Shown piece by piece: positions 2,911 through 58,748 of a DNA stretch of 64,000 bases. This DNA is from an uncultured Mucispirillum sp. (GTDB taxonomy: Bacteria; Chrysiogenota; Deferribacteres; Deferribacterales; Mucispirillaceae), in NCBI GenBank assembly GCA_944324465.1, contig CALUWI010000009.1, positions 62,001-126,000 on the forward strand, in the 5' to 3' direction. Position 1 is the first letter of the stretch, and each line of letters starts with the position of its first letter. Position numbers and translations under genes: made by a program. The notes beneath the pieces are model-generated. The model was not told the origin of the DNA. It saw only the letters and a program-made list of their open reading frames with translations, and ran no database searches.

Positions 2911-4491
2911 TTATTTTGGCAGTGATTCTGTGCCTTTTTCTATTTTTGGCTTAAATTTGCTTTTTTCCACTAATTTATAACCATCTGCATATAAAAGAAC
3001 TGGAGTTCTCACCGCATATCCGTTTACTATTTCGTCTATATTTGTAATATATTTACCTTCTTCATCTTTATTAACTATTTTATTAATATATGTAATAATA
3101 TCATAGCCTAATGCACTTTTACCGCTCATTGGAACACCATAAAAACCTTTATAGTCATTTGATATTCTGCTGTATTCTTCATTGCCTGCTAAAAATGCAG
3201 AAGTTAATATATACACTCCTTTAAAATATGAACGCTGGTCATTTGTTATATCATATTCTGGAATATAGCTTGTCATTACAAGTACATCTTGTATTGTGCT
3301 GTTTATATGCCAGTATTTTGCAATAGGTATAATATCAAGTATTTCTTTTTCGTCTGCCATAATGATAATTACATAAGGTGTTTCTTTATCTTCCTGTAAT
3401 ATATTCTGCAGCTCTACTTGATATCTGCCTGATGTTTTTACAACAAATGCTTCTTTACCTGCACTTTTAAATGTATCAGCAATTATCCTGCCATGTGTTT
3501 CATGTAAATCTGATGTAATAATTACTGCTTTTGATTTATTTTTCACTATTTTTAATTCGCCGGCAATCTCACTTAACTGCAGCCAGTCTACCCCAAGATT
3601 TGTTTTATGACCGCCTATGAATAAGTCATAGTTATTTAATCTTAAAAGCATATCTGTTTTGCTTTCTTCATCTGCTGCAAAATCTGATACAGGCTCAAGC
3701 TGGTAGTTATTGTTATATTTACCCATACCATATATCATACCTGCTGCCACATCATCAAATATATCGCCGCCTGCTAAATTTATTTTTGCATCAGGCTTAA
3801 TATTTACTTCTTCTATTTCACTGGCTTCTGATGACACAGTATCCATATTTTCTACTGCTCCACCTATACCTATTGCCTGCAGATATTCTTCATAAGTCAT
3901 ATTATCTGTCATAATAGGCAGCGGCTGTTCTTCAATATTATCTGTTGCTATTTCTTTAAATTTTTCTTTACCGTCTATTGCTATATCAAGGCAGGTATTG
4001 ATTTCATTATCATTTGTTACAAGCACACCAAGCTGATTACAGTATATCTGCATTACACGCATATATATAGGTGTCCTTCTCATTTCCCGCACATTATTTG
4101 CCATATTTATGGCTGCACCTTTCTCTCCCTCTCTAAGTAACGATTCCATTTTCCAGAGCTGGCCAAAGATAGTCATTTCTTCATCAAGGTTTTTTGAATT
4201 GTAGCTTTTATCTATAAGCAGTCTGCCATAGTTTTCATCACCATAGTAAAGATAGTATGAGCCTAAAAGAAGTGTGGCAGAATCTGCAATAAATAAATCA
4301 GGGTGGACAGTTAACTCTCTTAACTTAACAATATCTTGATTCTGAAGCTGCCTTGCTGCATAATATTCTGGATAAAAAGTTTTACTCTGCTGGCCTTTTA
4401 ATGCACAGCCGTTTAATATTATTACAGCACTAACGGCTAATAATACAGTAAGTCCGCGTAATTGGTGATTCAATCCTAATTTTTTCAACAT
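2911..4491 (-). CDS. Lipoprotein with periplasmic-binding-protein type 1 fold (LpoA/LppC-like)
   Basis: An N-terminal signal with lipobox ILNGC (Cys29) anchors this 526-residue protein in a membrane. The N-terminal third resembles a helical TPR-like region. From about residue 285 the pattern IFIGGHKT, AVIITSDLHETHGRIIADTFKSAGKE and KGVYILTSAFLAG looks like the leucine-binding type 1 fold. This two-part layout is that of LpoA, the outer-membrane activator of penicillin-binding protein PBP1A, and its neighbour is a lytic transglycosylase; a role in cell-wall growth is therefore inferred. The start overlaps the end of rsmG by 62 bases. No later Met would keep the signal peptide, so the long overlap is probably real. 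Confidence 0.65.
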   Translation of the reverse strand: MLKKLGLNHQLRGLTVLLAVSAVIILNGCALKGQQSKTFYPEYYAARQLQNQDIVKLRELTVHPDLFIADSATLLLGSYYLYYGDENYGRLLIDKSYNSKNLDEEMTIFGQLWKMESLLREGEKGAAINMANNVREMRRTPIYMRVMQIYCNQLGVLVTNDNEINTCLDIAIDGKEKFKEIATDNIEEQPLPIMTDNMTYEEYLQAIGIGGAVENMDTVSSEASEIEEVNIKPDAKINLAGGDIFDDVAAGMIYGMGKYNNNYQLEPVSDFAADEESKTDMLLRLNNYDLFIGGHKTNLGVDWLQLSEIAGELKIVKNKSKAVIITSDLHETHGRIIADTFKSAGKEAFVVKTSGRYQVELQNILQEDKETPYVIIIMADEKEILDIIPIAKYWHINSTIQDVLVMTSYIPEYDITNDQRSYFKGVYILTSAFLAGNEEYSRISNDYKGFYGVPMSGKSALGYDIITYINKIVNKDEEGKYITNIDEIVNGYAVRTPVLLYADGYKLVEKSKFKPKIEKGTESLPK

Positions 4492-5017
4492 TTAAACCTC
4501 GCTTTTTTATTACAGGTAATGCTTCTTTTAATTCTTCATCCAGTCTTTCACCTTTATACATTACCCACTTAGTGTTTTGTTTTGATATCTGATATGAGTT
4601 TTTTAAAAGCTCTTTTACAGTAGATACTCCCCTTGCTGTAATAATATCAAAACTTCTATCTTTTATGTTTTCTACACGCGTATTTAATACTTCAATATTT
4701 TTAAGCTCTAATGCTTTGGCTGATTCTTCTAAAAATCTGCATTTTTTGCCTATACTCTCTATAAGAGTAATCTTTAATTCTGGGAAAAAAATGCCAAGCA
4801 CTATTCCTGGAAAGCCGCCACCGCTGCCAATATCTGCTAAACTGCCCTGTGGAGCTTCATACTGCTGAAAATAGTATATACTATCAAAATAATGTTTCAA
4901 GTAAAATTCTTCTTTTTCCTTAATAGCAGTTAAGTTTATTTGACAGTTTAAATGTAATTCATAAAACTTTTCAAGCTTTTTTTCTATTATATCTGTTGTT
5001 TTTATTAATTTATCCAT
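4430..5017 (-). CDS. rsmG: 16S rRNA (guanine-527-N7)-methyltransferase RsmG
   Basis: Methylates N7 of G527 in 16S rRNA using S-adenosylmethionine; loss confers low-level streptomycin resistance in other bacteria. The SAM-binding loop LADIGSGGGFPGIVLGI is clear, preceded by NLTAI and KHYFDS motifs and followed by VENIKDRSFDIITARGV, all hallmarks of the GidB family. Length 195 residues is slightly short of the usual 200-215. It overlaps the end of mnmG by eight bases and its own last 62 bases overlap the following lipoprotein gene, so translation is likely coupled. The mnmG-rsmG pairing near the origin is common across bacteria. Confidence 0.95.
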   Translation of the reverse strand: MDKLIKTTDIIEKKLEKFYELHLNCQINLTAIKEKEEFYLKHYFDSIYYFQQYEAPQGSLADIGSGGGFPGIVLGIFFPELKITLIESIGKKCRFLEESAKALELKNIEVLNTRVENIKDRSFDIITARGVSTVKELLKNSYQISKQNTKWVMYKGERLDEELKEALPVIKKRGLNVEKIRIESPITRTYCIISR

Positions 5018-6875
5018 TATTTTTCTTCTCTTTATTTATTGCAATTTCTAATATTGATACTGCAGACATACTCATTCCCGGTATCCTTAATGCCTGCCCC
5101 AGAGTTTTTGGCTTTATTCTGCTAAGCTTTTCTCTGTACTCCCTTCTTAAGCCTGAAATATTGCTGTAATCAAAATCATCTGGTATTTTTTTATCTTCTA
5201 ATGATTTATATTTCTTTATATCTTCTTCCTGCAGGCTTATATACCCTGAATATTTTATAATTGTTTCCACCTGCTTTGCTGGCCTGCCTGTTAAACTTGT
5301 TAGACCCATATCATATATCATATCAATATTTGTTTCAGGCCTTTTTAAAAACTCATAGCAGGATATGCCTCTATCTAAAGATATATTATATTTTTCCAGC
5401 TTTTCTCTGTTTTCTTTTAATCGTATAGTTTCTTTTTTAAATCTTTCTACTTCACTATATACACTTTCTTTTTCCTGTAAAAATCTTTCATATCTTTCTT
5501 TAGATATAAGACCAAATTTATATCCGTATTCTATCAGCCTGTATTCTGCATTATCTTCTCTTAAATGCAGCCTGTATTCTCCACGGGAAGTAAACATTCT
5601 ATAAGGCTCATCCACCCCTTTTGTTACCAGGTCATCAGTTAATACACCGATGTAGCTTTCATTTCTTCCTAAGATAAATGGCTCTTTATTATCAAGAGAT
5701 AATACTGCATTAATACCTGCCATTAAACCTTGACATGCTGCTTCTTCATAACCGCTTGTACCGTTAATCTGCCCTGCAAAATAGAGCCCTTTTATTATTT
5801 TTGTTTCATAGGTTGGATATAATATCGTTGGCTGGAATGCTTCATATTCTATTGCATAAGCTGGGCGGATAAACTGGCAGTTCTCAAGCCCTTTAATAGT
5901 TCTGTATGCTGCAAGCTGTGCATCTACCGGCAGAGATGTAGAAAATCCATTAGGATATACTTCCCTGCTGTCACTTCCTTCCCTTTCTAATATTATCTGG
6001 TGTCTTGTCCTTTCTGGAAATTTTGCAATTTTATCTTCCATACTTGGACAGTATCTGGGACCTATCCCTTTATCTGCAGAATTATAATATATACTTCTAT
6101 GAATATTTTCTTTTACTATTCTGTGCGTTTCTTCATTAGTATATGTTGCATAACATTTAATCTGGGGCAGTTTAAAACTTTCATTTTCAAATGAAAACGG
6201 AATCTTTTCGCCTTCCATTTCATATACTTCAAGTTTAGAAAAATCTATTGTACGAATATCTATTCTTGCAGGTGTGCCTGTTTTTAATCTTACTGCACTA
6301 AAACCTATTTCTTTTAATGACTTTGAAAGCTCTATTGATGGCTTTTCATAAGTTCTGCCTGCTGGAAAGCTGGTTTCTCCAATAAATACTTTACCGTTTA
6401 AAAATGTTCCTGTACATATTATTGCTTTTTTACATTTAAAATCTTCACCCCAGGTATTACCTATGCCGTATATTTCATTATCTTTTATATAAATCTGAGA
6501 TGCTTCGCCCTGTTTTACTTCCAGATTGCTTTGGATCATTAATGTATTTATCATTCTTCTAACATATACTTTTTTATCAGCCTGCCCTCTTGAGCTTTTT
6601 GCAGCTGCACCTTTTTTACTATTAAGCATCTGGAACTGGATACATGCATCATCAATATTTTTTGCTATCTCTCCACCTAATGCATCTATATCTTTTACAA
6701 GATTGCCTTTTGCAAGTCCACCGATTGCAGGGTTGCAGCTCATTTGTGCAATGCTGTCTATCGTTGATGTTAAGAGCAGAGTTTTTGCTCCCATTCTTGC
6801 GGCTGCAAGTGCTGCTTCACAGCCTGCATGACCTCCACCAACAACTATTACATCATATATTTTTTCAAAATTCAT
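5010..6875 (-). CDS. mnmG: tRNA uridine-5-carboxymethylaminomethyl modification enzyme MnmG, copy 1
   Basis: With MnmE this FAD enzyme makes the 5-carboxymethylaminomethyl group at wobble U34 of tRNAs. The FAD-binding GGGHAGCEAALAAARMG, Cys47 in MSCNPAIGG, RLKTGTPARID, GPRYCPSMEDK with the second conserved Cys, and GQINGTSGYEEAA are all present, as is the C-terminal MnmE-contact region (SGLRREYREKL, LGQALRIPGMS). At 621 residues it is full length. Compared with copy 2, this one keeps the RLKTGTP motif but has KGAAAKSSRGQAD where typical MnmG has KGPAVRxxRAQAD. It is the copy transcribed together with rsmG. Confidence 0.95.
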   Translation of the reverse strand: MNFEKIYDVIVVGGGHAGCEAALAAARMGAKTLLLTSTIDSIAQMSCNPAIGGLAKGNLVKDIDALGGEIAKNIDDACIQFQMLNSKKGAAAKSSRGQADKKVYVRRMINTLMIQSNLEVKQGEASQIYIKDNEIYGIGNTWGEDFKCKKAIICTGTFLNGKVFIGETSFPAGRTYEKPSIELSKSLKEIGFSAVRLKTGTPARIDIRTIDFSKLEVYEMEGEKIPFSFENESFKLPQIKCYATYTNEETHRIVKENIHRSIYYNSADKGIGPRYCPSMEDKIAKFPERTRHQIILEREGSDSREVYPNGFSTSLPVDAQLAAYRTIKGLENCQFIRPAYAIEYEAFQPTILYPTYETKIIKGLYFAGQINGTSGYEEAACQGLMAGINAVLSLDNKEPFILGRNESYIGVLTDDLVTKGVDEPYRMFTSRGEYRLHLREDNAEYRLIEYGYKFGLISKERYERFLQEKESVYSEVERFKKETIRLKENREKLEKYNISLDRGISCYEFLKRPETNIDMIYDMGLTSLTGRPAKQVETIIKYSGYISLQEEDIKKYKSLEDKKIPDDFDYSNISGLRREYREKLSRIKPKTLGQALRIPGMSMSAVSILEIAINKEKKNNG

Positions 6876-8328: not shown

Positions 8329-10191
8329 TTATTTTTTACTTTTATTATGCTTGTAAATTTCAACAGCTAAAACAGAAATTGCAGTTTTTGTAAGCCCTGG
8401 TATTCTTAATGCCTGTCCTAATGTTTTAGGCTTAATATTTTTCAGCTTGTCAGAATATTCTAACCTTAGGCCTGAAATATTATCATAAGAAAAATCTTCT
8501 GGAATAACTATGCTTTCTATATCTTCCTTATTACTTTCTTCCATACTTTCTATATAGCCTGAGTACTTGATTTTAATTTCAACCTGTCGTGCTTTTCTGC
8601 CGCTTAAGCCACCGCCTGTTAATTTTATTATATCATCATAACTTAACTGTGGTCTTTTTAATAATTCTTCAGCTTTAAATGACTGACTTATACTTACACC
8701 AAATTTTGCAAGATATTCTTCATTTTCTGCTGTTTTCTTAATAAGCGTACTTTTAAGTCTTTCTATTTCATTATTAATTTCCTGCATATCGTTCTGATAT
8801 CTTTCATATCTTGTTTTAGAGATAAGACCTAATTTATACCCATACTCTATCAACCTTTCTTCCGCATTATCTTCTCTAGTTAACAGCCTGTATTCACTGC
8901 GGGAAGTAAACATACGGTACGGCTCAGTAATACCTTTTAATACTAAATCATCAGTAAGAACACCAATATAGCTTTCATTTCTGCCTAAAACGAACGATTC
9001 TTTATTATCAAGAGAAAGAACAGCATTTACTCCAGCCATAAACCCCTGTACTGCAGCTTCTTCATAGCCGCTTGTACCGTTAAGCTGTCCGCCGAAAAAG
9101 AGCCCTCTTACAAGTTTAGTTTCATAAGAATGGTTAAGTCCTGTTGGCTGATAGGCATCATACTGTATAGCATAAGCTGGGCGGATAAACTGGCAGTTTT
9201 CCATTCCTTTTACTGTTCTATATGCTGTTATCTGTGCTTCAACTGGAATAGAACATGAAAATCCGTTTACATGTACTTCTTTTGTATTTAACCCTTCCGG
9301 CTCAATTACAAGTTTATGACCAGTTTTTTCTGGAAATTTAAGAACTTTATCTTCCATACTTGGGCAGTATCTTGGACCATTACTTTCTCTTGCACCATTA
9401 TAAAAAAGGCTTTTTTCTACAGCTTCTCTTATAACTTTATGTGTTTCTTCATTAGTCTGAGTACCATAGCATTTAATCTGCGGCAGATTTATGCTTTCTG
9501 TTTCTGCAGAAAACGGTATCATTACATCATCACTTACATATTCTTCTAGTCCATTTAAATTTAAACTGTCAATATGAAGCCTTGCTGGAGTATCTGTTTT
9601 TAATCTTATAGGATTAAAGCCTATTTTTTTCAGAGAAAGCGAAAGACCTGTTGCGGCAGGCTCATACATTCTGCCTGCTTCTATCACTCTATCCCCTATA
9701 AATATTTCCCCACCAATAAATGTACCACCGCATATTACAAGTCTTCTTGCAAGAAATGTTTGACCGCATGCTGTTTCAACACCACGAACTGCACCATTTT
9801 CCACAAGTATTTCTGTAACTATGCCCTGCTTAACATCAAGAGAAGGTGTATTCATTATTACAGTCTGAAATCTGTCTTTATATAAATGCTTATCAGCCTG
9901 TGCCCTGCTGCACCATACTGCAGGCCCTTTTCTTTTATTAAGTACTCTAAATTGAATACCTGTTTCATCAATATTTTTTGCCATTTCCCCGCCAAGAGCG
10001 TCCATATCTTTTACCAGGTTGCCTTTTCCTATACCACCAATAGCAGGATTACAAGGCATTAAAGCAATATTATCAATAGAGATTGTAAGCAGTAAAGTAT
10101 CTGCCCCCATTCTTGCAGCAGCAAGCGATGCTTCACAGCCTGCATGACCTGCACCAACAACTATAACATCGTAAATTTTTTGAAAATCCAT
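8329..10191 (-). CDS. mnmG: MnmG paralogue, copy 2
   Basis: A second full-length MnmG (620 residues) with FAD loop GAGHAGCEASLAAARMG, Cys47 in MPCNPAIGGIGKGNLVKDMDALGGEMAK, RYCPSMEDK and GQLNGTSGYEEAA. It retains the more typical KGPAVWCSRAQAD where copy 1 is unusual, but has RLKTDTPARLH where MnmG normally reads RLKTGTPxRID, and GTFIGGEIFIGD in place of GTFLNGKVFIGE. The two proteins align end to end and look like old, diverged duplicates, since identity appears well below that of a recent copy. Whether both modify tRNA, or one has a changed role, cannot be told here. It stands alone between its own terminator and parS site 2. Confidence 0.9.
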   Translation of the reverse strand: MDFQKIYDVIVVGAGHAGCEASLAAARMGADTLLLTISIDNIALMPCNPAIGGIGKGNLVKDMDALGGEMAKNIDETGIQFRVLNKRKGPAVWCSRAQADKHLYKDRFQTVIMNTPSLDVKQGIVTEILVENGAVRGVETACGQTFLARRLVICGGTFIGGEIFIGDRVIEAGRMYEPAATGLSLSLKKIGFNPIRLKTDTPARLHIDSLNLNGLEEYVSDDVMIPFSAETESINLPQIKCYGTQTNEETHKVIREAVEKSLFYNGARESNGPRYCPSMEDKVLKFPEKTGHKLVIEPEGLNTKEVHVNGFSCSIPVEAQITAYRTVKGMENCQFIRPAYAIQYDAYQPTGLNHSYETKLVRGLFFGGQLNGTSGYEEAAVQGFMAGVNAVLSLDNKESFVLGRNESYIGVLTDDLVLKGITEPYRMFTSRSEYRLLTREDNAEERLIEYGYKLGLISKTRYERYQNDMQEINNEIERLKSTLIKKTAENEEYLAKFGVSISQSFKAEELLKRPQLSYDDIIKLTGGGLSGRKARQVEIKIKYSGYIESMEESNKEDIESIVIPEDFSYDNISGLRLEYSDKLKNIKPKTLGQALRIPGLTKTAISVLAVEIYKHNKSKK

Positions 10192-10339
10192 ATAAACCCT
10201 TTTTTAAAAAAATTTGATGATTATAATAATTTTTTTTATTGATTTTGTAAAGAAATTAATTAGATTTGTTCTATTTTGAAAGCTGATGAATAGTAAAATG
10301 GAAATTAGAATCTATTTTCTTCAGTAATAAATAAAGAAC

Positions 10340-10369
10340 TTTTTAATGTTTCACGTGAAACATTAAAAA
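10340..10369. promoter_or_regulatory. parS centromere site 2
   Basis: TGTTTCACGTGAAACA at 10347-10362 is again an exact parS match. The perfect symmetry extends over 30 bases (10340-10369), with flanks of A and T that differ from those of site 1. The stop codon of the decayed membrane gene copy B begins at the base after the core site. It lies 156 bases upstream of the start of mnmG copy 2. Confidence 0.92.
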
Positions 10370-10825
10370 AAATATTTAAAATAAACATTCATAAAAACAA
10401 CCACAACACTATAAGATATTATACCTAACACAACTTCAAAAATTATTTTAGATTGAATTGGATAAAGGAAAGAATTTTTTGCAATATCAGAATCAGAATA
10501 ATAATTAGAATGAGTAAACAAAACAGCTAAATTCATCAACAGAGTTTTACGACGGTCTTTTTTTTACATGTACTATATAAAATTTAGAATCAGTAGGATT
10601 TATTCTTTTTCCATATCTCAAATTAAAGTATGTTTCACTAATAAAAGCTGCAATTAAAAATAAAACAAAAAGATGTTCATAAGTGTATAAATAAAAATCA
10701 GATGAAGAAAAAGAACAAATAAAGTTTATAAAGCTAATAACAAATAAAGTTAAAAAAAAGAAAAACAATGTATACAAAAAAGCATAATTATATATAAAAA
10801 AACCAAAATATAAAAGTATATACAA
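10363..10825 (-). pseudogene. Decayed small membrane-protein gene, copy B
   Basis: A 92-codon frame (10547-10825, TTG start, no ATG) ends HVKKRPS at an A8 run (10558-10565 on the plus strand as T8). If one A is removed the frame runs on as DRRKTLLMNLAVLFTHSNYYSDSDIAKNSFLYPIQSKIIFEVVLGIISYSVVVVF to a stop at 10363-10365. The joined product of about 150 residues is very hydrophobic and Phe-rich with roughly four membrane segments. Its tail resembles that of copy A. It lacks a good start codon, so it is probably dead rather than switched. Confidence 0.45.
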
Positions 10826-10867
10826 AAAAAGTAATTAAGATTATAATAAACAGAATAAAGGTGAAAA

Positions 10868-19656: not shown

Positions 19657-20667
19657 TTATTTTATATTTATAACATTTTCAAAATTAAGCCGAGTATTAT
19701 CAACACCTGTGTATAAAACTTGTCTGTTATTTGAAAAAATATTTTTTATAAATTCAGCCCGCTTTTTATCAAGAGCTGCTTCAAAATCATCTAAAAGAGT
19801 TATTATACTTATTTTTCTGCTTTCTTCAATAATTTTTATAAAGCTGTATAATGAGAGCAGTATAAATGTTTTTTTCTGACCTGTTGATGAAAATTTTTCT
19901 ATTATTTTTTCATCAAGGCACATTTCTATTTTATCACGATGGACGCCATATAATGACTTTTTCATAAATTTTTCTTTATTTAGTAAAGATGTGTCTGATA
20001 TATTGCTGGAATAATTTATAAAAACATTTTCCATGGTGAAATCTAAACTGTTATATAATTCTTTTAGATTTTTATTAACCTCATCAATAATTTTAACCCG
20101 TTTACTGGATATTTTGTTTGAAAGATATACTATTTTTTCATTCAATACATCTAAATATATAAAATCAGATGTTTCTTTATCAAATTCTGCCTGTTTTTGT
20201 GATAAAAGCCTGTTATAATGTTTTACATCATATATATGCTCTTTATCATAGTAAAAAATAAATCTGTCTATAAAATTACGCCTGTCCTGCTGGTCTTTTG
20301 ATAATATACCAAGCATTTCAGGTGTATAACAGGCAACAGGGTGATTATATACATAATCTGCAATATCTTCTATATCTTCCCCGTTTACCATTGTTATTCT
20401 TTTATTTTTAAATAAACATACTGCATCGCTTGTAAGTGAGCCGTTTTTTATTTCACTTTCTATTCTGAAAAATTCTTCATTAAAAGTAACAGCTGATGAT
20501 AAAGGCTGTTTTTTAAAACTTCTAAGTCCAAATAATATATATATTGCCTCAAGTATTGTTGTTTTACCTGAGCCGTTTTCGCCTATAAACAATGTTTCAT
20601 TACTAAGCTCATAAAAAGAGTTAGTATGGTTTCTTAAGTTTATAAGCTTTAAATTAGATGCATACAT
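19657..20667 (-). CDS. recF: DNA replication/repair protein RecF
   Basis: SMC-like ATPase that helps RecOR load RecA at gaps. Walker A GENGSGKTTILEAIYILF (about 30-47), the signature near STGQKKTFILLSLYSFIK and Walker B LLDDFEAALDKKR are clear. At 336 residues it is a little shorter than the typical 355-370. It lies seven bases after dnaN. Part of its 3' end has a decayed second copy at 23.53-23.89 kb. Confidence 0.93.
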   Translation of the reverse strand: MYASNLKLINLRNHTNSFYELSNETLFIGENGSGKTTILEAIYILFGLRSFKKQPLSSAVTFNEEFFRIESEIKNGSLTSDAVCLFKNKRITMVNGEDIEDIADYVYNHPVACYTPEMLGILSKDQQDRRNFIDRFIFYYDKEHIYDVKHYNRLLSQKQAEFDKETSDFIYLDVLNEKIVYLSNKISSKRVKIIDEVNKNLKELYNSLDFTMENVFINYSSNISDTSLLNKEKFMKKSLYGVHRDKIEMCLDEKIIEKFSSTGQKKTFILLSLYSFIKIIEESRKISIITLLDDFEAALDKKRAEFIKNIFSNNRQVLYTGVDNTRLNFENVINIK

Positions 20668-20674: not shown

Positions 20675-21787
20675 TTATATTTTATCTATAGATATAGGAA
20701 CAACTAAATATCTGTAATTACTTTCACTTGGAGTAATTAAAACAGGTGAGCGTTTATCACTCATTTCAAGTGTAAAATCTTCTGTTTCTATAATATTTAA
20801 TATTTCATTAATATGCTTTGCATTTAATATTATTTCAAAGCTCTCTGCATTAAAGTCTAAAATATCTATAATTTCAGAGCCTTCTCCATATATTGTCTCA
20901 AGGCTGGACATTTTAAGTGTAGAGTTATTAAATTCTAATATAATACCTGGTGTTTCTTCACTTGTAATAGCAGAAACCCTTTTAGATGCTTCTATAAATG
21001 ATTTCCTGTCTATTTTAGCTTTTACTGGGTATTTTTCAGCCATAAAAAGCCTATCTATATTTTTAACAAACTTTTCTATTAATTTAGAATATACTGTAAT
21101 ATTATCAGCTTTAAAAGAAATCTGCCTTCTGTCTGTTTCTATTTCTATTAAGCCTTTATTTTCAAAAACTCTTATAATCTCTGAAACTGTTTTTTTAGGA
21201 ATATTTACTGTAAAATCATTTGAATACTCTGTATCAAATTTTGCAGATGCTATTGCTACTCTCTGCATACCTGTTGCAGAAATCTCTAACATATCTCTGT
21301 TAACAGTAAACTGTGCACCAGTATATTCAAGTTTTTGAGAATCATTTAATATACAGAATACTGTTCTTTTTAATAAGGTAACTAAATCTGATGAATTAAT
21401 TTTAAGATAATATTCTGGTATTATTTCACCCATAGATGGAAAGTTTTCTGATGGTATTGTAGAAAGCTTAAATTTAGATTTGCCGCATATAACATTTAAT
21501 CTTGTATCATCATACTGAAAATCTATTAATGCTCCATCTGGTAATTCTTTTATAATATCTAAAAGTTTTCTGCAGCTTACAGTTATTCTTCCTTCATGCT
21601 CTATATTATGAACTTCAAAATTACATGAAAAGCCCATTTGATAGTTGGTTGCTTTTATATTAACCATATTATTTTCTGCTTCCATGTAAATATTTTGAAG
21701 AATATCATTTAACCCTTTTGGATTAGTGAAACTGTTAGCATATTGTAAGTATTTTAATATGTCTTCTTTAACAACTGAAAAATGCAT
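20675..21787 (-). CDS. dnaN: DNA polymerase III beta sliding clamp
   Basis: Ring-shaped processivity factor for the replicative polymerase. The protein starts MHFSVVKEDILKYLQYA and has three repeated clamp domains over 370 residues; conserved patches include FSCNFEVHNIEHEGRITVSCRKLLDIIKELPDG, SKFKLSTIPSENFPSM, GVxRVAIAS-like GMQRVAIASAKF and a late SPVLITPSESNYRYLVVPI. Its position between recF and the candidate origin, downstream of dnaA, is the classical arrangement. Confidence 0.95.
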   Translation of the reverse strand: MHFSVVKEDILKYLQYANSFTNPKGLNDILQNIYMEAENNMVNIKATNYQMGFSCNFEVHNIEHEGRITVSCRKLLDIIKELPDGALIDFQYDDTRLNVICGKSKFKLSTIPSENFPSMGEIIPEYYLKINSSDLVTLLKRTVFCILNDSQKLEYTGAQFTVNRDMLEISATGMQRVAIASAKFDTEYSNDFTVNIPKKTVSEIIRVFENKGLIEIETDRRQISFKADNITVYSKLIEKFVKNIDRLFMAEKYPVKAKIDRKSFIEASKRVSAITSEETPGIILEFNNSTLKMSSLETIYGEGSEIIDILDFNAESFEIILNAKHINEILNIIETEDFTLEMSDKRSPVLITPSESNYRYLVVPISIDKI

Positions 21788-22132
21788 AATTACCTCATTA
21801 GTTATAAGCTGAAATATTACTTTGCTTATATATATATAAGTTTGTTATTGTTATTGAGCTGTGGATAACTCAAATAAGTATTAAAAATTATATATTTTAT
21901 AACAAATTTTAGCAATAATAAATTGTTATCCTAAACTAAGATTTTAAAAAAAATATTATAAAATTTCAAGAATTTTGTTTAATTTTCTTATAATACTCCA
22001 AAAATATTTCAAATTACTTATACTTTTTTTAACAGGTTATCCCAACAATAATTTTGATAACTTTATAAATTATTAATAAATAAAGTAATTATAATGTGAT
22101 AACCTGTGGAAAACTTTTTAATAATATTAGAG
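21788..22132. other. Candidate chromosomal replication origin (oriC) between dnaA and dnaN
   Basis: This 345-base gap has no ORF and is extremely A+T rich. It holds a perfect DnaA box (21860-21868) and weaker candidates: TGTGGAAAA at 22105-22113, TTATCCCAA at 22037-22045 and TTATCCTAA at 21926-21934. The A/T-only stretch about 21940-22030 could be the unwinding element. The dnaA-dnaN spacer is the usual oriC location. Box strength other than the perfect one is inference. Confidence 0.7.
21860..21868 (-). promoter_or_regulatory. Perfect DnaA box
   Basis: TGTGGATAA on the plus strand equals TTATCCACA on the minus strand, the consensus DnaA-binding 9-mer. It lies 73 bases upstream of the dnaN start codon, so DnaA could also influence dnaN transcription. 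Confidence 0.8.
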
Positions 22133-23506
22133 TTATCTTTGGAAAACTTTCATCCTGTTTGAAAGTTCTTTTAAAGTATTAACTGTATAGTCATTATTAG
22201 CTGCTATTTCTTTTTCTATTTTATTGATTGAGTTTTTAATTGTGGAATGGTCTCTATTAAATATTGCACCAATAGAAGCTAAAGATGACGGCGTATTTTT
22301 ATATATAAGATATATAGCCATATTTCTTGGTATAACAATATTTACTGCCCTGCTTTTTGACTGCATATCAACAAGTTTTATATTGTAGTAATCACATACT
22401 ATCTGAATTATTTCATTAGGTGATAATACTCTGTCTCTTTGCAGAAAGAAGTTTTTAAGTTCGCTTTGAATATAATCAACAGTTACTTCCACATTATAAA
22501 GCTGCCCTTTAACTACTATAGTATTAATTACACCAAGTAAATCTCTTGTACTGTCTGATTTAATATTTTCAGCTACAAACTTAATAACTTCATCTTTGAT
22601 GTAGTATTTATTAATTTTTAAATAGTTTTCTATAATAGCTATTTTTTCATCAACTGATGGTGTACCTATCTCTACAATTAATCCGCTTTTAAAACGGCTT
22701 GAAAGACGCCTGTCTAAATCTATTATATCATCAGGCAGTGAGTTTGATGTTAAAATAATCTGCTTGTCATTACTGTAAAGTTTTGAGAAAAGAAAGAAAA
22801 ATTCTTCCATTGTAGCTTCGCCTCTTGAGATGAACTGTACATCATCAAAAAGCAGCACATCAGTTGCTTCGTATTTATTATTAAATTCATGCAGTCGGTT
22901 TGTTTTTAAAGAGTTTAAAAATTCTCTTAAATAAAGTTCACCAGTAACACACAGCACATTTTTTTTAGGGAAGTTTACCCGCATATAGTTGCCTACTGCA
23001 TGCATAAGGTGAGTTTTTCCAAGACCTACATCACCATGAATATAAATAGGGTTATTCAGCCTTTCAAAACCTTTTGCAGCATTCAAGCAGGCAGCATAAG
23101 CAAATCTGTTAGATTTACCTGCAACAAATGTTTCAAATGTATATTGCTTGTTTAAAGGAACACTGTAGTAATCATTACTGTAGCTTTGCTTATCTTCTTT
23201 TTCTTCACTTGAACTGCTTGAAGATTTATCTTTCTTCTCTGTTTCTGTATTTCCTTTTAAAGTAATTTTTATATTTGCATCTATAATGTGGAAAGCATTT
23301 TTTAAAATCTCTTTAAGATAATCTAAATAATGGTCTTCTACCCACATTTTTATATATTTATTTGGAGCTTCTAAAGTGATAGTATTAGCTTCAATGGATA
23401 CAGTTTTTAAATCTTTTATCCATTTTAATATTTCTTCATCTGTGATTTTTTCTTTGATTTCATTAAAAATATGCTGCCATGATGCAGCTTTATTAGTATT
23501 TTCCAT
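22133..23506 (-). CDS. dnaA: Chromosomal replication initiator DnaA
   Basis: AAA+ protein that opens oriC. Domain I occupies about residues 1-90, followed by a Ser/Lys/Glu-rich linker (SSSSSEEKEDKQ), then domain III with Walker A GDVGLGKTHLMHAVGNY, Walker B LLFDDVQFI and sensor motifs (ILTSNSLP, RLSSRFKSGL). The C-terminal domain IV helix-turn-helix has the signature FNRDHSTIKNSINKIE. 457 residues, standard. Ribosome binding site GGAGG-like (ATGGAGGATAAGT) precedes ATG. A broken second copy of its first 30 or so codons lies just upstream at 23.90-23.99 kb. Confidence 0.97.
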   Translation of the reverse strand: MENTNKAASWQHIFNEIKEKITDEEILKWIKDLKTVSIEANTITLEAPNKYIKMWVEDHYLDYLKEILKNAFHIIDANIKITLKGNTETEKKDKSSSSSSEEKEDKQSYSNDYYSVPLNKQYTFETFVAGKSNRFAYAACLNAAKGFERLNNPIYIHGDVGLGKTHLMHAVGNYMRVNFPKKNVLCVTGELYLREFLNSLKTNRLHEFNNKYEATDVLLFDDVQFISRGEATMEEFFFLFSKLYSNDKQIILTSNSLPDDIIDLDRRLSSRFKSGLIVEIGTPSVDEKIAIIENYLKINKYYIKDEVIKFVAENIKSDSTRDLLGVINTIVVKGQLYNVEVTVDYIQSELKNFFLQRDRVLSPNEIIQIVCDYYNIKLVDMQSKSRAVNIVIPRNMAIYLIYKNTPSSLASIGAIFNRDHSTIKNSINKIEKEIAANNDYTVNTLKELSNRMKVFQR

Positions 23507-23532
23507 ACTTATCCTCCATTATATATTAATTT

Positions 23533-23893
23533 TATTTTAAAATATTTTCAAAATTAAACCTAGTATTATCAATACCTGTGTATAAAATATATCTGTTATT
23601 TGAAAAAATATTTTTATAAATTCAGTCAGCTTCCTGTTAAGAGCAGCTTCAAAATCATCTAAAAGAGTTATTATATTTATTTTTCTGCTTTCTTCAATAA
23701 TTTTTATAAATATGTATAAACAGAGCAGTATAAATGTTTTTTCTAGCCTGTTGATGAAAATTTTCTATTATTTTTTCATAAATGCATATTTTATTTTATC
23801 ACGATAGACGCCATATAATGACTTTTTCATAAATTTTTTTTTATTAAGTAAAAAATGTGTCTGATATATTGCTGGAATAATTTATAAAAATAT
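23533..23893 (-). pseudogene. Remnant of a duplicated recF 3' end
   Basis: The plus-strand sequence aligns base by base with 19667-20030, the last third of recF, with scattered substitutions and small indels that destroy the frame. Shared stretches include TCAAAATCATCTAAAAGAG and GACGCCATATAATGACTTTT. It directly follows a remnant of the dnaA start (23896-23990) and lies upstream of the intact dnaA. No protein product is expected. Confidence 0.88.
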
Positions 23894-23895
23894 TG

Positions 23896-23990
23896 TTTCT
23901 GTTTTAATATTTCTTCATCTGTGATTTTTTCTTTGATTTCATTAAAAATATGCTGCCAGGATGCAGTTTTATTATTATTAGCTATACTTA
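23896..23990 (-). pseudogene. Remnant of a duplicated dnaA 5' end
   Basis: This stretch matches the first 90 or so bases of dnaA and its ribosome binding region (23420-23518) almost perfectly, for example ATTTCTTCATCTGTGATTTT and AAAATATGCTGCCA. The start codon has become ATA and the Shine-Dalgarno GGAGG is altered to GCAGG. The match stops abruptly near 23895, where the recF-like remnant begins. Confidence 0.88.
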
Positions 23991-24004
23991 TCCTGCATTA
24001 AAAA

Positions 24005-24919
24005 TTAGAAAAAGGCTGAAATGTCTATTCCTGCAGAATAGCCAATACCTGTGCTGTTATTATTAAATAACTGCACCTGTTTAGATACATAGTTGTGGCC
24101 GTCTATTATAAATTCCACATAAGGGCTGATTCTTACTATATCCTTAATTGTAAAGCTGTATCTAAATCGGGCAGCTATTCTATCTACATAATATTTTTCC
24201 TGCTCGCTGTAATATACATCTTTTATAAGGTTTGAAAGCTTATACATATCATTATCCATTTCAAACTGGAACTGAAAAATGTTGCTTTTATTTACACCCA
24301 GATTAAGTGAAAAAAATACATCAATCACCGGCACATATTCAAACTCTATTGATGAATATTTTAAAAAGTCTACTTTAAAGTAAGTTAAAGGAAGCCCAAA
24401 TATAACATTTACACCAGGCTTGCTGTATTCATATCTTATAACTGGAAGTGGATAGCCGTCTAAAAAATCTCTGCTTGTAGAATATTCTACACCTAAATAA
24501 AGCCTTGAATAGTAAGGAAGTGCTTTTCCTTTTATATTTTCATACTCTGTAACATGCTGGAATATTCTAAAAGCATAAAATACATCAAAATCAAGTAAAT
24601 TTAATGATGTAAAAGGTTTATCACTGGCAGAAGTAAGCCCAAAGCCTGCCCAGTGGCTGCCTGCTTTATAACCATAAGTTAATCCTACATGGGATAATAT
24701 ATCCTGCCCCAAAACCTGACGAAATTCATATCCGAACTGGTGGGGTGTGCTTGTGTGAAGTCCTGAAACTTCTATTGTATGTGTGTCATAATTTGCAGTA
24801 TCAAGCCATCTGTATTTTATATTAAGCCCTTCATAAGGCTTATATAATGCATTAGATGCATAACTGTTTAAAGATATTAATAATATAACAAATAAAAAGA
24901 ATATCTTTTTATTCATCAT
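24005..24919 (-). CDS. Predicted outer-membrane beta-barrel protein
   Basis: A cleavable signal peptide (MMNKKIFFLFVILLISLNSYAS) is followed by about 280 residues of alternating hydrophobic and polar positions with many Tyr, Phe and Gly, and the chain ends in AFF, that is a C-terminal aromatic residue as required by the barrel assembly machine. The family is unknown to me. It overlaps the end of the preceding PEP-synthase-like gene by 11 bases, so the two are probably made together. Role unknown. Confidence 0.6.
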   Translation of the reverse strand: MMNKKIFFLFVILLISLNSYASNALYKPYEGLNIKYRWLDTANYDTHTIEVSGLHTSTPHQFGYEFRQVLGQDILSHVGLTYGYKAGSHWAGFGLTSASDKPFTSLNLLDFDVFYAFRIFQHVTEYENIKGKALPYYSRLYLGVEYSTSRDFLDGYPLPVIRYEYSKPGVNVIFGLPLTYFKVDFLKYSSIEFEYVPVIDVFFSLNLGVNKSNIFQFQFEMDNDMYKLSNLIKDVYYSEQEKYYVDRIAARFRYSFTIKDIVRISPYVEFIIDGHNYVSKQVQLFNNNSTGIGYSAGIDISAFF

Positions 24920-32294: not shown

Positions 32295-33044
32295 TTAAAA
32301 TCTGTAACCTGCTTCTATACCAACTTTAACATTATTAAGCACTGGGTTATGCGGATTATTGTATGCATTAGAAGAATTATGTTGCATAAGAATATAATCT
32401 AATCTTAACCCTGTATATATATTATTTTTAAAATTATATCTTAACCCTGCTTGAAATAAGAAACCTAATCCATTATTTAAGTCTTCTGTTATAATATTAG
32501 TTCCAGAAGTAGTATCTTTTTCAGTTATTTTATTTGAATAAAGAGTAAAACCTAAACCAGCCCATGGAACAAAACCAGATTCACCTCTTTTTGTTTCATA
32601 TTGAAAAATAATAGATGGGCTTAATGTAAAAAGCGACATATTTCTAGTATATTTCCCTGTAATACCAGTTTGTCCTGTATAAACAATATTTGTAATATCT
32701 GTTTCAGGAGAACCGCTAATAGATAAATCCAAACCTATTGCAAGCCATCTTTTAAGATTAATTTTTCCATTAAAGGATATACCACCGCCGTGATTTACTG
32801 GATATTTTACTCCAAGAGTTTCTACACCAGCTTCAATAGTTTTACCATTTCTTCCAGGTATAATTGCATCATAATAAACAAATAAACCAGCAGTAATACC
32901 ATATGGCAGTTCTCGTTTATACTCATCACTTATCCAAGAACGGTTATTTGCACTATCATCTTCACTTTTTTGCTGAGCAAATGATTTTTCAATAAAACTT
33001 CCAAAAATAGAAAATAAAACTATAAAATAAAATATTTTTTTCAT
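32295..33044 (-). CDS. Predicted outer-membrane beta-barrel protein (OmpW/Opa-like size)
   Basis: Signal peptide MKKIFYFIVLFSIFGSFIEKSFAQ, then about 225 residues with amphipathic strands and a C-terminal GYRF, so it should insert as an eight-strand barrel. Patches such as GGGISFNGKINLKRWLAIGLDL and FLFQAGLRYNFKNNIYTGLRLDY resemble the OmpA-N/opacity-type porin-like fold. Function unknown. It is monocistronic: terminator at 32234-32265 and a 250-base leader with no other gene. Confidence 0.65.
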   Translation of the reverse strand: MKKIFYFIVLFSIFGSFIEKSFAQQKSEDDSANNRSWISDEYKRELPYGITAGLFVYYDAIIPGRNGKTIEAGVETLGVKYPVNHGGGISFNGKINLKRWLAIGLDLSISGSPETDITNIVYTGQTGITGKYTRNMSLFTLSPSIIFQYETKRGESGFVPWAGLGFTLYSNKITEKDTTSGTNIITEDLNNGLGFLFQAGLRYNFKNNIYTGLRLDYILMQHNSSNAYNNPHNPVLNNVKVGIEAGYRF

Positions 33045-33253
33045 TAATACACCTCATAATAAAAAATAAATTCGTAATAAATACATAATTATATATGGCA
33101 GGTATTCATAGTTATGCAATTTTTAGAAAAAATAAATACAAATATTATACTATCAACAAAATTTTTACATAAAATATACAGGATAATAAATTTAATATAA
33201 TTTATATATATCTGTTTAAGAATAATATTAATTAGATATAAGATATAAAACAT

Positions 33254-33286
33254 AAAAAAACCTCTGCCCACTTTAGTGGACAGAGG
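33254..33286 (-). terminator. Strong Rho-independent terminator of the clostripain-like gene
   Basis: An 11-base stem with one mismatch (33261-33271 with 33276-33286, loop TTTA) followed on the minus strand by seven T. It lies 12 bases past the last stop codon of the interrupted protease gene. Confidence 0.85.
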
Positions 33287-33298
33287 TAGTATAATAAA

Positions 33299-51021: not shown

Positions 51022-51480
51022 ATGTTTATACATCCGCTTTCTGATGTTCAAAGTAAAAATATAGGGCAGGATACAAAAATATGGCAGTTTTGTGTTGTGC
51101 TTGTAAAAGCTGTAATTGGTAAAAACTGCAATATATGTGCTCATGTTCTAATAGAAAATGATGTAATTATAGGCGATAATGTTACTGTCAAAAGCGGTGT
51201 TCAGCTGTGGGACGGTATTCGTATAGAAGATAATGTTTTTATTGGTCCAAATGTAACATTCACTAATGATTTATACCCACGCTCAAAAAAATATCCAGAA
51301 AAATTCCTTCAAACAATAGTAAAAAAGGGAGCATCAATTGGAGCAAATGCAACCATTATTCCTGGTATTACTATCGGAGAAAATGCTATGATAGCAGCAG
51401 GAAGCATTGTAACAAAAGATGTGCCAGCTAATACTTTATATAAAACTAAAATAAATGTAGAGACTAGGAGTCTAATATGA
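51022..51480 (+). CDS. Left-handed beta-helix acetyltransferase (sugar N-acetyltransferase)
   Basis: A 152-residue hexapeptide-repeat acyltransferase, with repeats from about residue 17 ([67 protein letters not shown]) and a late [33 protein letters not shown]. This matches the WbbJ/FdtC type that acetylates the 3-amino of dTDP-3-amino-3,6-dideoxyhexoses. ATG follows the ketoisomerase stop codon directly and its end overlaps the aminotransferase start by four bases. Confidence 0.8.
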
Positions 51481-52556
51481 TTAAATTTTTAGATTTATAC
51501 AAAATAAATGAAAGGCACAGAAAAGAAATAGATGAAAGAATAAAAAAGGTATTAGACAGCGGCTGGTATTTACTGGGAAAAGAAAATGATGAATTTTGTA
51601 ATAATTTTGCAAAATTCTGTGGTGCAAAATATGCTGTAGGTGTAGCAAATGGACTTGATGCCTTAAAACTTGCTATTATGGCTTTAGGCTTTAAAAATGG
51701 CGATGAAATATTAGTGCCGTCAAATACATATATTGCTTCAATTTTAGCAATAAGTGAATGTGACTGTAAACCTGTTTTAGTTGAACCTGATATTAATACA
51801 TATAATATAAACCATGCTTTAATAGAAGCAAAAATTACAGATAAAACAAAAGCGGTTTTAGTGGTGCATTTATACGGTCAGGCAGTAGATATGACAAATA
51901 TTAAAGCTGTGGCTGAAAAATATAATTTAAAAATAATAGAAGATGCAGCTCAAGCACATGGAGCAAGTCATAAGGGAATAAAAACAGGAAATCTTGGTGA
52001 TATTGCAGGTTTTTCTTTTTATCCTGGTAAAAATTTAGGCTGTTTAGGTGACGGCGGTGCTGTTACTACAAATAATGAAGAACTTTATAATAAAGTAAAA
52101 GCATTAAGAAATTACGGCTCACATAAAAAATATGAAAACTTGTATATAGGTCTAAATTCCAGATTAGATGAAATACAGGCAGCAGTATTAGATGTAAAAT
52201 TAAAATATTTAAATAATGATAATGATTACAGAAGAAAAATAGCAAAATATTATATAGAAAATATAAAAAATGAAAAAATAATACTTCCAAACTACAACGA
52301 TGAACATGTTTATCATATTTTTGCAGTTAGAACAGAAAAAAGAGATGAGCTGCAAAACTATCTTAAAGAAAACGGCATAGAAACATTAATACACTATCCT
52401 ATCCCGCCACATAAACAGGTATGTTATAAAGGAATATTAGGGGACAGCTATCCAATCAGTGAAGAAATACACAGAACTATATTAAGCATGCCAATTTCTC
52501 CAGTCATAACAATGGAAGAAGCAGAAAATGTAGTCAAAGTATTAAATAATTACTAA
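51477..52556 (+). CDS. fdtB: DegT/DnrJ/EryC1 family PLP-dependent sugar aminotransferase (FdtB-like)
   Basis: A 359-residue aminotransferase. The PLP Lys lies in [44 protein letters not shown] and [20 protein letters not shown] are further family marks. In the Fdt or Qdt pathway such an enzyme aminates the 3-keto sugar made by FdtA. The stop codon shares its last base with the next ATG. Confidence 0.82.
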
Positions 52557-53611
52557 TGGTATATATAATGGAAAATAATATAAAAGTATCTGTAATAATA
52601 CCAGTGTATAATGCTGGAAAATATTTAAAGCAGTGTATAGATTCTCTAGTAATGCAGTCGCTAGCAGAAATGGAAATAATTTTTGTAAATGACTGTTCCC
52701 CATGCAGCGATGATGAAGAGCTTATTATGCAGTATATGGAAAAAGACAGTAGAATTAAATATATTAAACATGAACAGAATAAAGGCACTGCTGGTGCAAT
52801 AAATACTGGGCTTGAAAACTGCTCTGGAAAATATGTTACAATTGTTGGAAATGACGACTATCTGCTGGATAATAAATGTTATGAGTATCTTTTTGCAGAG
52901 GCAGATAAAAGTAATGCAGATGTAGCTGGCTTTGGAGCATATTCTTTTAATGACGGAAATGACAGGGATAGAGTGCAGATATATAAAAACTCATATTACA
53001 AAAAAGCACGTAAAGTTAACCCAGAACACTTTCCATCAGAAGTTACATGGAATAAACTTTTTAAAACAGACACTATCAAAAAAAATGATTTACAGTTTAA
53101 TACAAATGCAAAATATGAAGATATTGAGTTTTGGTACAGGTATGTAATCACAGTTAATCCTGTAATGGTTTATATAGATAAAAATTACTATATGTACAGA
53201 CAACGAGCAAACTCTGTAATGTCTACACCTGCAAATTATATTAAAAGATTTGATGTTTATAAAATGATATATAACTTTATAAAAGCAAATAATAAAGAAA
53301 AAGAATACAGAACAAATATAATAAAATGGTTTAATTATCCAGAACAGTATGAATATTTCACTGATGAAATAAAAGATATATACAGGCAGCATTCAATAGA
53401 GTTTATGAAAGAAATAAATGTAACAGCAGATGAAATATTTAATTTTTTAGATATGAGAGTATTTAAGCTATTTTTCAGTGATAAATTTATTACAGAAAAA
53501 TACAGTGAAGTAATTGAAAATTATAAATCAGTAAAATATAAATATATAAAAGTAAATGTGTTATTCTATAAGTTAAAAAGAGAAATTAAAAGACTGATTG
53601 GAAAATTTTGA
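52556..53611 (+). CDS. Family 2 glycosyltransferase
   Basis: A 351-residue GT-A enzyme: VSVIIPVYNAGKYLKQCIDSLVMQS, FVNDCSP, GTAGAINTGLENCSGKYVTIVGNDDYLL with the acidic metal site. The C-terminal 120 residues are basic and hydrophobic, ending in KLKREIKRLIGKF, like the GT2 at 60639 with which it shares the same layout. ATG at 52556 gives TAATG coupling; ATG at 52568 is an alternative. No poly-G tract. Confidence 0.87.
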   Translation: MVYIMENNIKVSVIIPVYNAGKYLKQCIDSLVMQSLAEMEIIFVNDCSPCSDDEELIMQYMEKDSRIKYIKHEQNKGTAGAINTGLENCSGKYVTIVGNDDYLLDNKCYEYLFAEADKSNADVAGFGAYSFNDGNDRDRVQIYKNSYYKKARKVNPEHFPSEVTWNKLFKTDTIKKNDLQFNTNAKYEDIEFWYRYVITVNPVMVYIDKNYYMYRQRANSVMSTPANYIKRFDVYKMIYNFIKANNKEKEYRTNIIKWFNYPEQYEYFTDEIKDIYRQHSIEFMKEINVTADEIFNFLDMRVFKLFFSDKFITEKYSEVIENYKSVKYKYIKVNVLFYKLKREIKRLIGKF

Positions 53612-53620
53612 GGTTAAAAT

Positions 53621-54469
53621 ATGAAAATATCAGTAATAATGCTTACATATAACCATGAAGATTACATTGAAAAGGCAGTAAAAAGTGTATGTGCACAGCA
53701 GGGTGATTTTGAGCTTGAAATCATAATAGGTGATGACTGCTCAAAAGATAATACTGCTGCAATTATAGAAAAGCTGTCAAAAGCACACAAAGAAATAAAA
53801 ATATTCAGACCAGAAAAAAATATCGGTATGCATGAAAATCTAAAAACATGCTTATCACTTGCACAAGGCGATTATATAGCGATGTGTGAGGGAGATGACT
53901 GGTATATAAGCCCTTATAAGCTGCAAATGCAGATGGAATTTTTAGAAAATCATAAAGACTGTGTAATGTGCAGCCACAGCTATATAGAATATAATCAAAA
54001 AGAAGATAAATACAGCACAGTAAATTATCAGCAGGAATATAATGGTGGGGGGGGGATATATACTTTTGAACAGTTAGTAGTAGAATATAAATGGTCTAAT
54101 TTTACTACATATATGTATAGAAAAGAATTGATAGATAAACTGCCAGAGTTTATATGGGAGCTTAATGGAGCCGATTACAGTTTTAATATGCATTGTGCAG
54201 TTTATGGCAGCCTTGGTATTATTAAAGAACCTTTAAGTGTATATAGAGCAGGCATTGGCCAGTGGTCAAGTTTATCACAAGTAAAGCAGCAGCAGGATAC
54301 ATTAGATTTTGCATATAAATCTAAAGAGCATTTTCACAAATATTATAATGGTAAGTATGATGATATATTCGATAAAAGAATTGAAAAATCCATTAAAAAT
54401 TTAAAAAGAGTTAAAGCAAAGGCATTTAAAAATAAAATAAGAAGATTTTTTAAAATAAAAGAGAAGTAA
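53621..54469 (+). CDS. Family 2 glycosyltransferase with a G9 tract
   Basis: A 282-residue GT2: MKISVIMLTYNHEDYIEKAVKSVCAQ, IIGDDCSKDNT, NIGMHENLKTCLSLAQGDYIAMCEGDDWYISPYKL with GDDWY as metal site. A G9 run at 54047-54055 encodes Gly143-145 in YNGGGGIYTFEQL, in the linker beyond the nucleotide-binding half. The present length keeps the frame open through the end, so the gene is ON. Losing or gaining one G would truncate it about halfway. Confidence 0.85.
   Translation: MKISVIMLTYNHEDYIEKAVKSVCAQQGDFELEIIIGDDCSKDNTAAIIEKLSKAHKEIKIFRPEKNIGMHENLKTCLSLAQGDYIAMCEGDDWYISPYKLQMQMEFLENHKDCVMCSHSYIEYNQKEDKYSTVNYQQEYNGGGGIYTFEQLVVEYKWSNFTTYMYRKELIDKLPEFIWELNGADYSFNMHCAVYGSLGIIKEPLSVYRAGIGQWSSLSQVKQQQDTLDFAYKSKEHFHKYYNGKYDDIFDKRIEKSIKNLKRVKAKAFKNKIRRFFKIKEK
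54047..54055. repeat. Poly-G tract, 9 G, inside a GT2 gene (frame ON)
   Basis: Nine G after AATGGT in the middle of the GT2 at 53621-54469; codons GGG GGG GGG in the open frame. It is exactly nine like most others in the locus. Confidence 0.88.
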
Positions 54470-54548
54470 ATTTAAATTATTTATAAATGAATTTTCTATA
54501 AAAAATTTTTCTACAAAAAGATATAACTACAAATATAAGGGATAAAGT

Positions 54549-56003
54549 ATGGTATTCAGCTCTTTCACCTTTTTGGTGTATTTTCTTCCATTTACACTGA
54601 TTGTTTTATATTTGCTGCCACATAAATATAGAAATATATTCTTATTAATAATGAGCCTAATATTTTATATGTGGAGCAGTCCACAGTATCTGCTTGTAAT
54701 GATTGGAGTTATAATTATCAACTATTTTGTTGGCATATATATAGATAAGTATGATATAATTGGGGGGGGGCAAAGTAAAAAATTAAAAAGTAGAATATTG
54801 ATTATTGGTATTGTTGTAAATGTATTAGTGCTTTTTATTTTCAAATATTTATCTTTTACTATAAATAGTCTTAGTGAAGCAGCACAAATGCTTGGTTTTA
54901 ATGGCTGGACATTTACAAATATAGTCCTGCCTGTTGGTATTTCTTTCTATATTTTTCAAAGTATTTCGTATCTTGTAGATATTTATAGAAAAGATGCGCC
55001 TGTTCAAAAAAGTATAAAAAATTTAGCCTTATATATTTCCATGTTTCCACAGCTTGTAGCAGGACCAATTGTAAGGTATAATTCAATAGCACAGGATATA
55101 GAGAGAAAAAGAGAAATTTCTTTTGATGTATTTATACTTGGTTTAAAGATTTTTATTATAGGGCTTGCTAAAAAAGTGCTGATAGCAAACCAAATGGCTG
55201 TAATTGCTGATACTATGTTTACTCAAGATGCTGCCTATTTAACTGCTTTAAATGCCTGGATAGGCGCGCTGGCATATACATTTCAAATATATTTTGATTT
55301 CAGCGGTTATTCTGATATGGCAATAGGTCTTGGCTTAATGATAGGCTTTAAATTTCCACTTAACTTTAATTACCCATATATATCATACAGCATAACAGAC
55401 TTCTGGAGGCGGTGGCATATTTCTCTTTCCAGCTGGTTTAGGGACTATGTATATATACCTCTTGGTGGAAACAGAGTAAAAATATCTAGAATGTATTTAA
55501 ATCTTTTAATTGTATTTATAATTACAGGGATATGGCATGGAGCAAACTGGACATTTTTAGTATGGGGCTTATTTCATGGTTTTTTCTTAGTCCTTGAAAA
55601 GTTTACAGGGCTTAATAAAATGGAAAAATATAAGCCTTTTCGATGGATAATAACTATGGTTATTGTAATTACTGCATGGGTATTTTTCAGGGCAGATACA
55701 ATACATGATGCATTACTTTATATAAAAGCAATGTTTGGATTTAACAGTAATGGAGAGATGCTTATTTTAAGCAAGCTTTATTTAAATAATCCTGCTTTTT
55801 ACATATTAATGATTGTGGGAATAATTGGTTCAACACCACTTATTAAAAAATATTTTATAAAAAATATTGATGCATTCAACCCTGTAAATGTATCTGAAAA
55901 GGTTTTATATCTGCAGAATATTATAATAATCGTATTTTTTGCAGCAGTTTATATAATGCTTGCAAATAATACATATAATCCATTTATTTATTTCAGATTT
56001 TAG
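54549..56003 (+). CDS. MBOAT family O-acyltransferase (AlgI-like) with a G9 tract
   Basis: A 484-residue polytopic protein, about ten hydrophobic segments. The MBOAT marks include WRRWHISLSSWFRDYVYIPLGGNRV and IWHGANWTFLVWGLFHGFF with the catalytic His, as in AlgI, which passes acetyl groups across the inner membrane for alginate or peptidoglycan/polysaccharide O-acetylation. The G9 run 54762-54770 encodes Gly72-74 near the second loop and is in frame (ON). The next gene is AlgJ/AlgX-like, the usual partner. Confidence 0.88.
   Translation: MVFSSFTFLVYFLPFTLIVLYLLPHKYRNIFLLIMSLIFYMWSSPQYLLVMIGVIIINYFVGIYIDKYDIIGGGQSKKLKSRILIIGIVVNVLVLFIFKYLSFTINSLSEAAQMLGFNGWTFTNIVLPVGISFYIFQSISYLVDIYRKDAPVQKSIKNLALYISMFPQLVAGPIVRYNSIAQDIERKREISFDVFILGLKIFIIGLAKKVLIANQMAVIADTMFTQDAAYLTALNAWIGALAYTFQIYFDFSGYSDMAIGLGLMIGFKFPLNFNYPYISYSITDFWRRWHISLSSWFRDYVYIPLGGNRVKISRMYLNLLIVFIITGIWHGANWTFLVWGLFHGFFLVLEKFTGLNKMEKYKPFRWIITMVIVITAWVFFRADTIHDALLYIKAMFGFNSNGEMLILSKLYLNNPAFYILMIVGIIGSTPLIKKYFIKNIDAFNPVNVSEKVLYLQNIIIIVFFAAVYIMLANNTYNPFIYFRF
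54762..54770. repeat. Poly-G tract, 9 G, inside the MBOAT gene (frame ON)
   Basis: T then nine G then CAAAG. The run lies in codons 72-74, in a loop after the second or third membrane segment, so a length change would truncate the acyltransferase early and turn it OFF. Confidence 0.88.
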
Positions 56004-56011
56004 GTGCTGAT

Positions 56012-57250: not shown

Positions 57251-57288
57251 TTAACTGCATTAAATTTTTATATCAAAATAATTTTTAA

Positions 57289-58200: not shown

Positions 58201-58343
58201 AATAATCTCCTTACTAATCAAAAATATAGCAATTAAAAAACAGGCAGTCAATAACGATTTTTAATAATAAACTATTGACAATTTAAGTACAATAAGACAT
58301 TCTATATAGTAATAAGGAATTTCTTTTTCCGGAGGTCAATGCA

Positions 58344-58748
58344 ATGTCTAAAATAAGAGTATTAATCGCAAAACCAGGTCTTGACGGCCATGACAGAGGT
58401 GCAAAAGTTGTTGCCCGCTCATTAAGAGATGCTGGTTACGAAGTTATTTACACAGGTCTTCGTCAGACACCTGAAGCAATTGTTGCAACAGCTATTCAGG
58501 AAGATGTTGATGCTATCGGCTTATCTATCCTTTCTGGTGCTCATAATACAGTATTTCCTAGAATTATTGAACTTTTAAAAGAAAAAAATGCATCAGATAT
58601 AGTGGTATTTGGCGGCGGTGTTATACCAGAAACTGATATTCCTGGTTTATTAGAAGCTGGTGTTGCTCATATTTTTACACCAGGTACTCCAACTGATGAA
58701 ACAGTTAAATTTTTAGAAGAAAATGTTAAACCAAAAAGCAGAGCATAA
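58344..58748 (+). CDS. B12-binding subunit of methylmalonyl-CoA mutase-type enzyme (small subunit)
   Basis: A 134-residue stand-alone cobalamin-binding domain: [38 protein letters not shown] with the DxHxxG base-off B12 motif, then LSILSGAHN and [13 protein letters not shown]. It is the C-terminal domain of methylmalonyl-CoA mutase made as a separate chain, as in archaea and Deferribacteres-like bacteria. The large catalytic subunit is not in the window. The G-protein chaperone MeaB follows. Shine-Dalgarno CGGAGG precedes ATG. Confidence 0.9.

Follow-up and report, generated by a model that had tools for sequence, protein, structure and literature searches.

The window, the whole 64,000-nucleotide stretch analysed here, carries dnaA, dnaN and recF on its minus strand, with a decayed segment, hereafter the scar, between dnaA and the gene upstream of it. 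The two gene remnants within the scar are written dnaA' and recF'. The full local order is an outer-membrane-like gene (omp), dnaA start, recF end, the intact dnaA-dnaN-recF, and gyrB. The features are listed below.

19657-20667, minus strand: intact recF, parent of recF' (repeats; general ATPase Pfam PF13175, PF02463 (below cut-off); synteny)
20675-21787, minus strand: intact dnaN (profile search)
21788-22132, minus strand: oriC-like spacer between dnaA and dnaN; DnaA boxes at 21860 and 22105 (sequence)
22133-23506, minus strand: intact dnaA, 457 aa (Pfam PF00308, PF08299, PF11638)
23507-24004, minus strand: whole scar, 498 nt, filling the interval from the omp-like gene to intact dnaA
23517-23526, minus strand: putative tandem-duplication joint, recF 3' flank to dnaA 5' flank (alignment)
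23530-23894, minus strand: recF', a frameshifted copy (91% identity) of the final ~375 nt of recF
23888-23899, minus strand: putative deletion joint between dnaA' and recF' (alignments to the parents), decayed, identical in both species that carry it
23896-24000, minus strand: dnaA', the ribosome-binding-site region and about the first 95 nt of dnaA, 88% identity to 23409-23528
24005-24919, minus strand: outer-membrane-like gene directly upstream of the scar (name guessed from sequence; no Pfam match)

The earlier note had described this segment as the start of dnaA fused to the end of recF on the minus strand, and comparison with the genome's own sequence confirmed it. On that strand, about 105 nt with the dnaA ribosome-binding site and start are followed by about 365 nt of the recF end. 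The similarity search within the genome matched the scar to recF with E = 9e-143 (90%, 380 nt) and to the dnaA start with E = 5e-38 (88%, 120 nt), both far above chance. The repeat finder returned near-constant direct-repeat offsets, 3865-3869 for the recF part and 479 for the dnaA part, and pairwise alignment gave strong identity to both parents (91% for recF', 88% for dnaA'). The boundaries proposed at first hold within about 15 nt, with dnaA' running to about 24000 and including the ribosome-binding-site region.

The claimed destruction of start codon and frame was also borne out. The dnaA' start codon changed from ATG to ATA (23985-23983) in both scar-bearing species, the forward frames of the scar contain stops in all three, and the recF' frame is broken by 1-nt deletions common to both species. 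Start, frame and coding constraint are thus all lost, as in a pseudogene. The longest exact run between recF' and recF is 36 nt in the window genome and 53 nt in the second species. dnaA' and dnaA share a perfect match of 57 nt in a copy that is about 9% diverged otherwise; the match hints at gene conversion between the two, although conservation of the dnaA start across species is good as well.

The parents have ATGGA in common at the inner joint (dnaA TTAAAATGGATAAA, recF CACCATGGAAAATG); we infer its position from alignment because the joint has decayed. At the outer joint, recF' extends a few bases beyond the recF stop into the 3' flank of recF itself (AATATATAA.GGGA), after which the sequence switches to the original dnaA 5' flank and ribosome-binding site (TAATGGAG; also given as TAATGGAGGATAAGTATG). 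This passage from recF 3' flank to dnaA ribosome-binding site is what would be expected of a tandem-duplication joint. The parental flanks nearly match there, with TAA.GG(A) at the breakpoint. Both joints fit a tandem duplication and a deletion that each used short homology.

The comparison covered 60 relatives and ten genomes of the genus, with one genome per species. The scar was carried by two of the ten genus genomes, the window genome (G000) and G003, where it lies on contig CALVEY010000009 with the same two joints and private changes of its own. Second DnaA N-terminus fragments were likewise found in these two only. In G001, G002, G005-G009 and the family members, omp is directly followed by dnaA, with a spacer of about 20-30 bp. 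The assembly of G004 is split within dnaA; on its contig L037, omp adjoins dnaA with no scar match between them. The order pep-omp-dnaA-dnaN-recF-gyrB is common to the other genus genomes and the family as far as contigs reach, and the outer-membrane-like gene at 24005-24919 stands at what was originally the left flank of dnaA in this genus. We presume that the scar-free relatives display the ancestral layout. If dnaA' recombined with dnaA, however, the scar would be lost and the simple order would return, so close ones such as G002 could in principle be revertants. The search of relatives suggested in the earlier note therefore had a mixed outcome: the same scar was found in G003, and a full second copy of the dnaA-dnaN-recF block in none of the 60 relatives or 10 genus genomes. 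Such an intermediate is expected to be short-lived, and finding one would support a collapsed duplication rather than define it. Two findings go beyond the earlier note: a second species also has the scar, and its divergence there is strangely low.

The unit concerned probably included oriC, as judged from boxes and skew. Both DnaA boxes of the dnaA-dnaN spacer have counterparts in G003, G006 and G009 (four Mucispirillum species compared). In the finished genome of G006, the cumulative GC-skew minimum lies at about 1.425 Mb (of 240 kb examined) and dnaA at 1.419-1.420 Mb, which places the minimum within about 5-8 kb of dnaA.

Gene order, joints and scar-free relatives support tandem duplication with internal deletion, the origin first proposed, as the best explanation. 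Fragments of the first and last genes are fused in unit order, on the same strand and beside the intact unit, and the relatives have a simple, apparently ancestral order at the site, as would be expected of a collapsed duplication. In a Mucispirillum ancestor, an illegitimate event would have fused the recF-gyrB and omp-dnaA spacers and thereby produced a tandem copy of the 3.87 kb dnaA-oriC-dnaN-recF unit. The upstream copy would then have lost about 3.4 kb of its interior, starting some 95 nt into dnaA and stopping some 375 nt short of the recF end, and with it its oriC-like spacer, its dnaN and the bulk of its dnaA and recF. The leftover sequence would have decayed neutrally, and homologous exchange would have moved it between lineages, leaving it in two species. 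Two dnaA/oriC copies may have carried a cost, and the deletion may have been favoured; two functional dnaA copies have been unobtainable in some bacteria (reviewed in PMC6615170), a finding that points to a reason for the loss of the extra copy. We consider it likely that the scar is a fossil of this history, with no evident function.

The main alternative, which we regard as rather unlikely, is that a stalled fork near the origin switched template twice, first jumping from the dnaA start to the recF end and then returning to a point immediately upstream of dnaA, and made the mini-copy in one step without a full second unit. The final arrangement would be identical, the short matches at both joints fit microhomology-mediated switching, and the lack of a full duplication among the relatives agrees with it. 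However, two jumps (about 3.4 and 3.9 kb) would be required in a single event, whereas origin-spanning tandem duplications and duplication with internal deletion have each been documented in BCG (PMC2448323, PMC6615170).

The two scars have one origin. A separate origin per species, with each scar paired with its own recF, was rejected (AU p = 0.0002). The stem common to both scars measures 0.079 substitutions/site, and the private branches 0.015 (G000) and ~0 (G003). By codon position, the stem substitutions number 12/5/7, without an excess at third positions. Among these 24 changes, G>A and C>T account for 11, transitions and transversions stand at 15 vs 9, and the GC content drops along the stem from 24% to 20%. 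This pattern is that of an unconstrained copy. As for the source lineage, rival placements (G000 vs G003 recF) gave AU p of 0.22-0.83, and the recF of G000 is the nearer parent-type sequence for both scars.

Between G000 and G003, recF' differs by substitutions at 5 of 365 sites (1.4%) and by five 1-nt indels. Fourfold divergence between the same genomes is 0.12 for recF, 0.16 for dnaN, 0.23 for dnaA, 0.30 for omp and 0.28 for pep, a nearby range of 0.12-0.30 uncorrected and up to 0.38 corrected. The first 45 nt of dnaA' differ at 7 of 45 sites, like ordinary neutral sequence, so the low-divergence tract begins inside the scar. Neutral decay alone since the two species separated would not be expected to leave so little divergence, and a second process is needed. 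Over the roughly 64 kb compared, zero-divergence tracts occur at 32295-33044 (0/94 fourfold sites) and 56012-57250 (0/104). Because similar low-divergence mosaic tracts occur elsewhere in the window, the scar was most likely passed between lineages by homologous exchange some time after its formation; the tracts favour such lateral exchange over hidden constraint.

The same comparison revealed other features of the window. The stretch 32295-33298, an OMP-like gene with its flank (flanking spacer 2%), is nearly identical to G003 amid genes at 25-30% and looks like a tract of recent exchange. The 676-nt spacer at 10192-10867, in which no gene is convincing, differs from G003 by 1.5%, against 8-25% in many other spacers. 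The cluster at 51022-58748, with glycosyltransferase-like genes, has mosaic fourfold divergence from G003 of 0 to 0.11. At a point between 29233 and 29311, G003 has about 6.5 kb of extra sequence. A tandem full-length mnmG/gidA-like pair (5010-6875 and 8329-10191, minus strand), about 68% identical, is also present in G003 as both copies.

The search for a function gave no sign of one. No ORF is common to both scars on the gene strand, with just short AT-rich chance frames; the scar shows neither RNA structure (z = +0.93) nor any Rfam match; and 23 promoter-like sites were counted in the scar vs a shuffle mean of 23.0. It is improbable, in our judgement, that the segment gained a role as a leader, promoter or DnaA-responsive dnaA control region and that purifying selection explains the interspecies identity of 98.6%. 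The few changes in recF' beside nearby fourfold sites at 12-30% would agree with such a role, and the scar parts dnaA from omp and places TTATACACA, a DnaA-box-like site (23577-23585), 71 nt upstream of the dnaA ATG. However, this site is merely part of recF, recF' gathered as many 1-nt indels as substitutions, the candidate functions came out empty, and exchange tracts of equal or lower divergence lie elsewhere in the window. Slightly more doubtful still is that the remnant serves as a standing recombination handle, a new dnaA control region, or both. If it did, the direct repeats flanking dnaA-oriC-dnaN-recF could allow the origin block to be amplified anew or excised time and again, control of dnaA could be changed by the displaced 5' region and its DnaA-box-like site, and the near-unchanged scar in two species would be explained.

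Chance similarity or an assembly artefact is scarcely credible: the segment is AT-rich, G003 is a metagenome assembly and the window genome (31 contigs) may be another, but both E-values are extreme, and a second genome has the same joints with private changes.

Collapsed tandem duplications leave ordinary gene-remnant scars, in which a truncated, fused pseudogene lies beside its parents in the same orientation. Unlike these, the Mucispirillum case involves the replication initiator and, probably, the origin. No relevant literature on Mucispirillum dnaA was found, and the origin-containing duplications found in the literature come from BCG strains; their long-term fate is rarely seen. The DU1 family comprises oriC-spanning tandem duplications with dnaA, dnaN and recF in several BCG substrains (M. 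bovis BCG Pasteur, Danish, China and Birkhaug), and in BCG 3281 a 7 kb unit is triplicated (PMC2448323, PMC4395146, PMC6615170). The event proposed for Mucispirillum would likewise have duplicated in tandem a block that contains dnaA, oriC, dnaN and recF. However, DU1 units span 7-30 kb, their copies showed no sequence differences, and they come from vaccine strains and from a single clinical isolate of BCG (PMC2448323, PMC4395146, PMC6615170), whereas in Mucispirillum the unit measures 3.87 kb, one copy has shrunk to about 0.5 kb of dead sequence, and the scar persists in two species. In DU2, a 100 kb unit was duplicated and then underwent a 64 kb internal deletion (PMC2448323). That duplicated segment also lost its interior afterwards, but it lies away from the origin and keeps a large functional remainder. 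The gut-metagenome lineage studied here shows the apparent aftermath, with one copy removed and a scar that lasted long enough to decay by about 8% before, it appears, passing from one species to another. On a small scale, it documents that in nature a second dnaA/oriC block can form and disappear again. The scar is a rare but understandable fossil, and what it adds to the BCG cases is a natural, decayed end state of a probable origin-block duplication, present in two species.
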